A stretch of DNA of 64,000 nt from Bacteroides mediterraneensis (lineage in GTDB: Bacteria; Bacteroidota; Bacteroidia; Bacteroidales; Bacteroidaceae). Numbering within the stretch: the first letter of the stretch is position 1; each line of letters starts with the position of its first letter. The DNA lies in NCBI RefSeq assembly GCF_016900355.1, contig NZ_JACJKA010000009.1:1-64000 (forward strand), written 5' to 3'. Shown here piece by piece: positions 1,157-59,256 of the stretch. A model generated the notes under the pieces. That model had not been told where the DNA came from. It did not search any database and saw only the letters and a program-made list of their open reading frames with translations. The position numbers and the translations under genes are program-made.

Positions 1157-1330
1157 ATGGAAAAAACGGAGAGTTTGAAAAACAAACGGGACGCTTACAA
1201 GAAAGAACAAGCAGCCGCTTACAAAGAAAAACAAAAGGAACAACTTGAAGGAAAACTTACAGAAAAACGAACAAATAAAAGAACGGCTCAGCAAACAGAA
1301 AAAAAAAGGAAGCCTCACCTACGGACATAA
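1157..1330 (+). CDS. Possible 57-aa Lys/Glu/Gln-rich small protein
   Basis: An open frame begins at ATG 1157 and ends at TAA 1328-1330. The product begins MEKTESLKNKRDAYKKEQ and stays highly charged, with a heptad-friendly, probably helical composition and a very basic end (KKRKPHLRT). No family is recognised and no clear Shine-Dalgarno is seen; upstream is the degenerate end of palindrome array A. The stop codon lies inside the terminator of the minus-strand small RNA. It could be a real small protein, a decayed gene, or chance in A-rich DNA. Confidence 0.3.
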   Translation: MEKTESLKNKRDAYKKEQAAAYKEKQKEQLEGKLTEKRTNKRTAQQTEKKRKPHLRT

Positions 1331-1528
1331 AAAAAGGAGTTCCGCTGAACTCCAACCTTTGTTAACCTTAAATCTAATACTATGAAAAACACAGTGCAAA
1401 AGTAAGCATTCCCGGGAAAACCACAAAGAATATAGCCGGAAAATCATGTTTTACAACACATATTAACCATCTACCATATTTCAATTAAATCCCTTAACAG
1501 ATAAAGGTTTAAAACTAAAAAAGTGCAG
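1319..1528 (-). repeat. Duplicated small-RNA cassette, copy 1
   Basis: About 210 bp here resembles 6578-6788. The segment from the terminator to the -7 box (about 1320-1404) differs between copies by one T in the loop-side T run. The promoter spacer has diverged. The upstream part (about 1441-1528) is partly conserved, notably a block reading CTGTTAAGGGATTTAAT on the minus strand (1499-1483) and a CTGCACTT block at the far end. Conservation of the upstream block with a divergent spacer suggests a bound regulator about 95 bp before the start site. Confidence 0.75.
1329..1391 (-). ncRNA. Small RNA, copy 1 (about 62 nt)
   Basis: On the minus strand, TTTG (1427-1424), a 19-bp spacer and TACTTTTG (1404-1397) make an exact Bacteroides promoter. 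Transcription would start near 1391. The RNA ends in the hairpin GGAGTT-CAGCGG-AACTCC (1353-1336) followed by seven T, a textbook intrinsic terminator. There is no open reading frame of note on this strand. A second copy with the same promoter and terminator lies at 6588-6651. Bacteroides is known to carry families of paralogous small RNAs; whether this is one already named cannot be decided here. Coordinates of the 5' end are approximate. Confidence 0.75.
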
Positions 1529-6577: not shown

Positions 6578-6788
6578 GTACGGACATAAAAAAAGGAGTT
6601 CCGCTGAACTCCAACCTTTTGTTAACCTTAAATCTAATACTATGAAAAACACAGTGCAAAAGTATTTATTTTATTTGGAACGACAAAGCCTGAAGCTAAA
6701 AAAGAATGTTTTACAACATACATTAACAACCTCCTATTCTTTGATTAAATCTCTTAACAAGTAAAGAAACAAAGCTAAAGAAGTGCAG
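6578..6788 (-). repeat. Duplicated small-RNA cassette, copy 2
   Basis: This is the second copy of the element at 1319-1528. The 85 bp from TACGGACAT through the -7 box are almost identical. Beyond the promoter the shared blocks are a TTTTACAACA run (about 6709-6718), CTTGTTAAGAGATTTAATC on the minus strand (6761-6743) and CTGCACTT (6787-6780). The two copies flank the sigma-54 permease operon, so this may be an old flanking duplication. Confidence 0.75.
6588..6651 (-). ncRNA. Small RNA, copy 2 (about 63 nt)
   Basis: On the minus strand TTTG (6687-6684), a 19-bp spacer and TACTTTTG (6664-6657) form the promoter. The hairpin GGAGTTCAGCGGAACTCC (6612-6595) with seven T (6594-6588) is the terminator. 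Spacing, -7 box and hairpin are the same as in copy 1, while the 19-bp spacer sequence differs completely. That pattern is what selection on a promoter would leave. The 5' end is estimated. Confidence 0.75.
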
Positions 6789-14946: not shown

Positions 14947-15158
14947 CCTCTATTGTTCCCGTTTCCGAAGAAAATACCGCTCCTATCTGATACAGTTTAC
15001 GGGCATCTGCCCCATATTCTTTCGCATATTCTGTCTATTTTATCTGGATTTATCCTAATTTGTTCCAAACTCAGAACTCATCTTCCCCGGTGACAACTAA
15101 TATTTACTGCAGTAAAAACTTCCGTTTCCCCTTACATATTCCCCCAAACTTCGGGAAA

Positions 15159-15254
15159 AATTCTCTGTCCCACACTGTGGGATACAAAAACCACAGTGTG
15201 GGATATGTATTTCACAGTGTGGGATACAAATCCCGCAGTGTGAAACAGAGAATT
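15159..15254. repeat. Array B, copy 1: 96-bp element with four 21-bp-phased palindromes
   Basis: A 10-bp perfect terminal inverted repeat AATTCTCTGT (15159-15168) / ACAGAGAATT (15245-15254) encloses four palindromes of the type CCACA-S-TGTGG. Their central bases are at 15175 (C), 15196 (G), 15217 (G) and 15238 (G), exactly 21 bp apart. A 93% identical copy of the same length lies at 59161-59256. Here it sits between convergent genes. There is no reading frame or transposase. Confidence 0.85.
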
Positions 15255-59001: not shown

Positions 59002-59160
59002 GTGGCCCAATCCTCTTATAACCGTAAAGTAGCATACCAAGCTGTGGACAAGACGAAGTCTTTACACGAATACCCGCATTTCCCACATAAAGAGGATTTG
59101 TTCCGGCGTTCCCTCGCAAACCTTTCTTACTCAGGGCATTTTCCTTCAAACACCAAAAAG

Positions 59161-59256
59161 AATTCTCTGTACCACACTGTGGAATACAAAAACCACAGTG
59201 TGGGATATATATTTCACACTGTGGGACACAAATCCCGCACTGTGAAACAGAGAATA
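59161..59256. repeat. Array B, copy 2: 96-bp element with four 21-bp-phased palindromes
   Basis: This copy has 7 differences over 96 bp from 15159-15254. The terminal repeats AATTCTCTGT (59161-59170) and ACAGAGAAT (59247-59255) are kept. Palindrome centres are at 59177 (C), 59198 (G), 59219 (C) and 59240 (C), exactly 21 bp apart. Two of the seven differences are G-to-C changes exactly at the centre bases of units 3 and 4. It lies between the DUF4831 terminator and the psd promoter, in a non-coding stretch; 59257-59435 holds nothing else recognised. Confidence 0.85.

Follow-up and report, generated by a model that had tools for sequence, protein, structure and literature searches.

A candidate Cur-type operator at a fixed place in the promoters of the multicopy small RNA FopS in Bacteroides mediterraneensis and its relatives

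Two nearly identical genes on the minus strand of the 64,000-nucleotide stretch of Bacteroides mediterraneensis DNA analysed here (the window) are genes for the small RNA FopS, of which this genome has at least 13 copies. The RNAs themselves are already known; what looks new is an operator, conserved upstream of their promoters, that matches the consensus of the carbohydrate regulator Cur, together with the finding of no RRM partner protein. We put the probability that the genes are FopS and that Cur controls them, whether by activation or by repression, at about three in four for the two jointly. A wider proposal, for which the odds seem only a little better than even, is that FopS is the RNA arm of the Cur regulon, in which a dozen redundant small RNAs that gate the SusC importers have their dose set by Cur, the operator has been swapped among the Bacteroidales, and the circuit works mostly without an RRM hub in the genus. 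The features of the window on which the argument draws are listed here.

1326..1393, minus strand: FopS small RNA, copy 1 (match to Rfam RF04319 at 1326-1392, 78.6 bits; 5' seed region, then the terminator hairpin)
6585..6653, minus strand: FopS small RNA, copy 2 (match to RF04319 at 6585-6652, 81.3 bits, and fold)
1329..1353, minus strand: intrinsic terminator of copy 1, GGAGTTCAGCGGAACTCC followed by seven T
6588..6612, minus strand: intrinsic terminator of copy 2, GGAGTTCAGCGGAACTCC followed by seven T
1397..1427, minus strand: Bacteroides-type promoter of copy 1, TTTG-N19-TACTTTTG, of the -33/-7 type in PMC7366714
6657..6687, minus strand: promoter of copy 2, TTTG-N19-TACTTTTG
1446..1459, minus strand: candidate Cur-type operator of copy 1, GTGTTGTAAAACAT, agreeing with ATGTTnTAnAACAT at 13/14 positions, the end of the dyad lying 41 nt upstream of the -7 box
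6706..6719, minus strand: candidate Cur-type operator of copy 2, ATGTTGTAAAACAT, agreeing with the consensus core at 14/14 positions
1484..1498, minus strand: GTTAAGrGATTTAAT block of copy 1, GTTAAGGGATTTAAT, a local second element
6744..6758, minus strand: GTTAAGrGATTTAAT block of copy 2, GTTAAGAGATTTAAT

Both copies exceed the curated cut-off of 56 bits for FopS (RF04319) in Rfam, with 78.6 and 81.3 bits, so that the resemblance is not a matter of chance, and the paralogous Bacteroides small-RNA family to which a preliminary description of this DNA had supposed them to belong is FopS. Elsewhere in the window, Rfam gives a single match above cut-off, to a partial 16S gene (1-357). The preliminary description had placed two near-identical small-RNA genes on the minus strand here, and the coordinates bear it out; the promoters and terminators that it had assigned to them were found at both copies, each promoter being of the canonical -33/-7 kind. 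Its view that the transcribed part is almost invariant also stands, since one inserted A is the sole difference between the RNAs at 1393-1326 and 6653-6585, but its length of 62 nt gives way to about 67 nt, as predicted from the Rfam match and the fold. The spacers between the -33 and -7 boxes are, as it had said, unrelated (7 of 19 positions identical between the copies); the operator element [AG]TGTTGTAAAACAT at 1446-1459 and 6706-6719, which the preliminary description had overlooked, is identical at 13 of 14 positions, and the GTTAAGrGATTTAAT block at 14 of 15. The centroid folds of both RNAs consist of the terminator hairpin alone; in the minimum-energy folds there are weak 5' pairs as well, and as a whole the RNAs are of unremarkable stability (z about -1.0 and -1.2).

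FopS was described in B. thetaiotaomicron in 2025 (Ruttiger et al., PMC11697453), with 14 copies in that species, and the window genes are like the published family in covariance score, seed, terminator, -33/-7 promoter and multicopy habit. A covariance-model search for paralogues, a check that the preliminary description had proposed, gave 13 loci over the RF04319 cut-off in the B. mediterraneensis genome (99.83% complete), seven weaker matches being left out of the count; the genes are thus not the pair for which they had been taken. Three of the copies lie inside 10 kb (G000:C55:174488-184002, G000 being the B. mediterraneensis genome), and a similar triple exists in the sister genome G007 (C1:3781364-3790862). 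All 36 genus genomes searched, the present one included, contain a FopS match (E 0.01), with 1 to 15 matches per genome. A pattern scan of named genomes found at least 119 stretches with the FopS pattern; records of Prevotella, Parabacteroides, Dysgonomonas, Tannerella, Barnesiella and Muribaculaceae are among the 80 matches listed, and the FopS sequence therefore occurs well beyond the Bacteroidaceae.

When the FopS upstream regions are aligned on the -7 box, TAnnTTTG, an upstream palindrome, ATGTTnTAnAACAT, keeps a fixed distance from it. Three of 64 genus regions and five of 125 named regions were dropped before counting, either as having no -7 box (two genus regions, L231 and L244, and three named ones) or as being too short. 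Within the 64 kb of the window, 1446-1459 and 6706-6719 are the sole places with one mismatch or fewer from ATGTTNTANAACAT, the expected number being 0.19. Eleven of the 13 B. mediterraneensis copies match ATGTTRTAAAACAT with two mismatches at most, 10 of these at -41, and in 10 of the 13 the dyad ends 41 nt from the -7 box; among the 61 genus copies, a dyad with at most three mismatches is found at -41 in 42 and at -42 in four (46/61). Base-shuffled controls, in which a match at any offset was accepted, gave 0.55 of 13 and 3.85 of 61, respectively. The dyad is absent from that place in three of the 13 and in 15 of the 61. Of 75 copies from B. mediterraneensis and the genus, 55 match ATGTTNTANAACAT at -41 or -42 with two mismatches or fewer, and none of 200 scrambled motifs did as well at any offset (mean 1.24); the largest value was 44, from a scrambled motif that may be a near-copy of the palindrome. 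With the Rfam start taken as +1, the centre of the dyad is near -60. Across the whole B. mediterraneensis genome, 14 places are within one mismatch of ATGTTRTAAAACAT (15 rows of matches, and six rows for the reversed control pattern): six are FopS operators, four stand before small-protein genes, one stands before the ara operon discussed below, and three carry no assignment. The preliminary suggestion that the upstream region bears a likely regulator site is upheld, the site being a conserved palindrome at a fixed distance.

The element that had been singled out for this role, GTTAAGrGATTTAAT, is kept between the two window genes (two matches with two mismatches or fewer in the window, 0.32 being expected) but is not a generally conserved operator. 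With three mismatches allowed, it occurs in only 10 of the 75 FopS upstream regions (0.95 in shuffled ones), eight of these 10 coming from the B. mediterraneensis genome and one sister, as against 55 of 75 for the palindrome, and it was rejected as a general operator.

Cur (BT4338), the master regulator of carbohydrate use in Bacteroides, has the consensus wwwTATGTTnTAnAACATAwww (PMC6989115, PMC3878776). The core of the FopS dyad is the core of this published consensus; for the 14-bp core, the only part compared, copy 2 agrees at 14 of 14 positions and copy 1 at 13 of 14. One of the named Cur targets is araMPRDAB (PMC3878776), and as a positive control a ATGTTGAAAAACAT site was found at position 3993 of contig C66 of the B. 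mediterraneensis genome, after a sodium:solute symporter gene and just upstream of an Aldose_epim / NrtR-AraR / Aldolase_II / AraA / FGGY-kinase operon, whose genes carry the domains expected of araM, araR, araD, araA and araB. The FopS genes have an operator palindrome core identical to that of the Cur regulon, the ara operon site being present in the same genome; they are absent from the Cur targets named in the examined passages of PMC3878776 and PMC6989115. No link between Cur and FopS was found in the searches made here of the text of journal papers. The examined text sections of PMC11697453 describe no Cur-type operator and bring in Cur only as a comparison for the colonisation phenotype, and the name FopS does not occur in the text of PMC10994844, the co-expression work in which MasB was assigned to Cur.

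Eight cNMP-binding proteins are encoded in the B. mediterraneensis genome. The best candidate for Cur is a 233-aa Crp/Fnr protein (G000:C17:64489-65187), whose identity across the 17 other genus genomes searched is 81-99%. A Cur-like dyad with at most three mismatches lies 16-39 nt before the start in 17 of the 20 orthologues with a readable frame (two of 22 had none, and seven of 29 loci were left out), and Ravcheev et al. (PMC3878776) reported a putative Cur site upstream of BT4338 itself. These observations support, but do not prove, the assignment of the 233-aa protein as the putative Cur orthologue. The closest relative of solved structure, 2gau (E 2.6e-64), is a Crp/Fnr protein and gives it no specific name, and NCBIfam put no Crp-like protein over its cut-off (four of the eight were given). 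A Cur box with two mismatches or fewer was found within 350 bp upstream of none of the eight cNMP-binding genes in this genome. Another Crp-like protein, L309 (G000:C22), was not our first choice for Cur: its identity is 50-63% in the genus (92% in the sister G007), it is missing from four of 36 genus genomes, and it has no fixed upstream dyad, 11 of 28 upstream regions having one within three mismatches at scattered places.

To compare FopS promoters of other lineages, the named records were grouped by their titles, 47 of 120 falling into no group. The Cur box is at -41/-42 in 16 of the 25 records titled Bacteroides, Mediterranea, Phocaeicola, Caecibacteroides or only Bacteroidaceae. Prevotella-type records (among L064-L143) have instead an FNR-type box, TTGAYnTAnRTCAA, which ends 59-62 nt before the -7 box in 21 of 31, and other Bacteroidales have a Cur-type dyad 7-12 nt before the -7 box in 12 of 17. 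The proposed scheme of swapping accordingly has a Cur box near -60 in Bacteroides, Phocaeicola and Mediterranea, an FNR-type box near -80 in Prevotella, and a Cur-type box near -28 in the Dysgonomonas/Parabacteroides type. The separation is imperfect, since one of the 17 other Bacteroidales has its box at -41/-42, one of the 31 Prevotella-type records has it at -11, and one of the 25 Bacteroides-type records has an FNR-type box; among the 47 ungrouped records, the Cur box is at -41/-42 in eight and at -7 to -12 in seven, and an FNR-type box occurs anywhere in eight. The dyad was also sought in seven phage or plasmid copies of FopS. It is exact at -41 in the single B. ovatus record, lies at -41 in all three B. 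finegoldii records (two exact, one with one mismatch) and, with three mismatches, in the phage copy, while of two P. massiliensis copies one has it at -41 with two mismatches and the other at -52. Several large non-mobilizable 'plasmid' records (OY725xxx / OY726xxx; B. finegoldii, P. massiliensis, Parabacteroides) carry FopS and may be mislabelled pieces of chromosome.

A related arrangement, in which the palindrome is near -40, was noticed at other promoters. The pattern ATG[CT]TRTAnARCAY-N17-23-TAnnTTTG gave 25 matches in 16 of 36 genomes (genus loci L201-L225) and none for the reversed control; in B. mediterraneensis the matches are at G000:C66:88954, C66:103287, C97:45453 and C86:526. An ORF for a protein of 25-33 aa resembling MKKVKNIFHKIANADPMIWGYVMLNDRLSK follows 18 of the 25, while five stand before three other tiny proteins and two before neither; Pfam and NCBIfam gave no match for the four tiny proteins tried. 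By eye, a second box, TTGAYnTAnRTCAA, stands upstream in 21 of the 25. L207 (G024:C47, 1500-1782) combines the two kinds of gene: about 170 nt downstream of a small-protein gene that has the palindrome near -40 lies a FopS gene.

Three other explanations of the palindrome have to be weighed against Cur. FopS might be as published and the palindrome bound by another paralogue of the CRP/FNR type, for example one responsive to bile or to redox state; the eight cNMP-binding proteins of the genome, the effect of bile salts on FopS in B. thetaiotaomicron (PMC11697453) and the FNR-type box of the Prevotella-type promoters, which suggests that regulators of this superfamily may exchange, are all consistent with it. 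However, copy 2 matches the Cur consensus core exactly and the same palindrome is found in this genome at the ara operon, which is among the named targets of Cur, and we regard another paralogue as unlikely. Upstream conservation could also be a memory of recent duplication, or could reflect an A/T-rich element of the UP type with no specific regulator. Long, nearly identical upstream stretches are indeed shared by the B. mediterraneensis copies L005, L007, L008 and L009, which points to recent duplication for some, and TTAA recurs at -58, -79 and -89 (in 52, 21 and 31 of the 75 upstream regions); but the palindrome stays at one offset across diverged species whose flanks have been lost, and similar palindromes stand before unrelated transcripts and before the ara operon, which makes this explanation improbable. 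The least probable, to a degree that it hardly competes, is that a larger mobile repeat or a phage element merely carries these blocks, a possibility that the preliminary description had raised against itself. The FopS core is present in 13 viral-contig records, and the Bacteroides phage BX-TP2 holds a FopS match, a phage copy having already been remarked on in PMC11697453; yet the window copies, flanks and promoter spacers included, are unrelated outside the RNA, the promoter and the operator, and the family is found in 36 of 36 genus genomes.

Control by Cur thus remains the preferred reading, and its direction can be considered separately. A site centred near -60 that leaves the -33 box free has the geometry of a class I activator of the CRP type, and because of this spacing we slightly favour activation over repression. 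If Cur instead bound and repressed these promoters, FopS would accumulate in glucose and hold the SusC importers down, in the manner of Spot 42, which in Escherichia coli is governed by CRP; this alternative, which is counted inside the probability given above for Cur control of either sign, is a tentative one, although published expression data lean to it. Relative to glucose, FopS is lowered about 3-fold on high-mannose N-glycan, and it is anticorrelated with the mucin-induced GibS (PMC11697453); more Cur-bound genes are repressed (140) than activated (35) (PMC6989115), and the dyad of the other Bacteroidales (12/17), being 7-12 nt from the -7 box, lies on the -33 region, a repressor-like place. 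Besides the activator-like geometry, the keeping of the spacing although the sequence between is unrelated argues against repression, and the 48 h glucose culture of PMC11697453 may, as we read it, have been depleted of carbon. Cur both activates and represses (PMC6989115), and its regulon responds to mucin and starvation (PMC10994844).

By the published mechanism, FopS pairs at the start codon and represses SusC translation (PMC11697453). The pairing predicted here between the FopS 5' seed and 30 SusC starts of the B. mediterraneensis genome (those with loci among 38 SusC matches, with start codons picked mechanically) has a mean of -15.2 kcal/mol, as compared with -9.6 kcal/mol for 200 shuffled seeds, none of which was as low, and -11.4 kcal/mol for 26 other mechanically picked ORF starts in the window (p about 1e-4 against the SusC starts). 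No 22-nt target with three mismatches or fewer was found in this genome outside the 13 FopS copies, so that any pairing with SusC is partial. From the computed family membership, copy number, operator, fixed spacing and predicted SusC pairing, we infer a scheme in which the RNA is made, Cur binds and the level of FopS changes. RNA polymerase would sit on the TTTG/TAnnTTTG promoter, and the carbon state of the cell would set transcription through Cur, a CRP-family protein, on the palindrome whose centre precedes the RNA start by about 60 nt. Each gene would make an RNA of about 67 nt with a 5' end, GUGUUUUUCAUAGUAUUAGAUUUAAGGUUAAC, partly complementary to SusC translation starts, where it would pair, as in B. 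thetaiotaomicron, and block translation of the glycan importers.

The published partner of FopS (PMC11697453) is RbpB, an RRM-1 protein. In the B. mediterraneensis genome (99.83% complete), we could not find any match to PF00076 (RRM_1) at E 0.001, the control, Bacteroides ihuae, having one. Over the genus, an RRM_1 match (E 0.01) occurs in 10 of 36 genomes, in which the genes were identified at the level of RRM_1, and is absent in 26, B. mediterraneensis included; for genomes at least 90% complete the figures are seven present and 16 absent of 23. Because the best E-value is 5e-18 or better wherever a genome matches, the absences are not marginal. FopS is present in all 36 genomes, including the 26 with no RRM_1 match. 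Thus, whereas FopS in B. thetaiotaomicron has RbpB, the present genome and 25 others of the genus are without an RRM_1 match, and in B. mediterraneensis FopS probably works with no partner of the RbpB type, the remaining alternative being a partner that has diverged or is differently folded.

The two genes between the FopS copies encode MacB/FtsX-type permeases, and the preliminary description had noted that the small RNAs flank this operon. The neighbourhood recurs in the sister G007, where two FopS copies are 5.3 kb apart; in tblastn searches in which positive controls matched, matches beyond the window's own loci came from this sister alone (98% over 53 aa and 97% over 102 aa), and the adjacency was seen at none of the 119 named loci listed, each up to 8 kb long. 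The pieces from other relatives, of 1 kb each, are too short to rule out adjacency there. The position of the operon beside FopS looks incidental, with no sign of a functional tie. Upstream of the permease operon, at 1579-1616 and 1671-1686, there are a TGTCTAA ... TTAGACA inverted repeat and a stretch like TGGCACG-N5-TTGT, which we take to resemble an enhancer site and a sigma-54 promoter. The window also contains a 119-nt direct repeat (15135-15253 and 59137-59255, 87% identical).

In E. coli, the small RNAs Spot 42 and CyaR are governed by CRP and act on mRNAs for sugar use or outer-membrane proteins. The analogy with FopS is one of logic only, since these RNAs are unrelated to it in sequence, depend on Hfq, and answer to cAMP-CRP rather than to Cur. 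Within Bacteroides, MasB is likewise a small RNA under Cur control (PMC10994844), but it is another gene with another target, and its link to Cur comes from deletion and northern blot, whereas that of FopS is one that we infer. GibS (PMC7366714) has the R1 seed in common with FopS, according to PMC11697453, and differs from it in its promoter (PM2), its R2 seed and its targets.

The control of FopS is ascribed in PMC11697453 to an 'unknown transcriptional regulator', and in PMC10294740 Cur is proposed to reach one of its targets, after transcription initiation, by way of a small RNA or an RNA-binding protein. An earlier genome-wide motif search spanned -50 to +1 (PMC7366714), and a site near -60 was thereby left out. 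That 26 of 36 genus genomes carry FopS but no detectable RRM protein suggests that the RNA-protein circuit as published is not an obligatory one, and these genomes form a group in which another partner of FopS, or none, may be sought. If the present reading is true, the Cur-type operator at a fixed place in the FopS promoter would join the FopS and Cur literatures.
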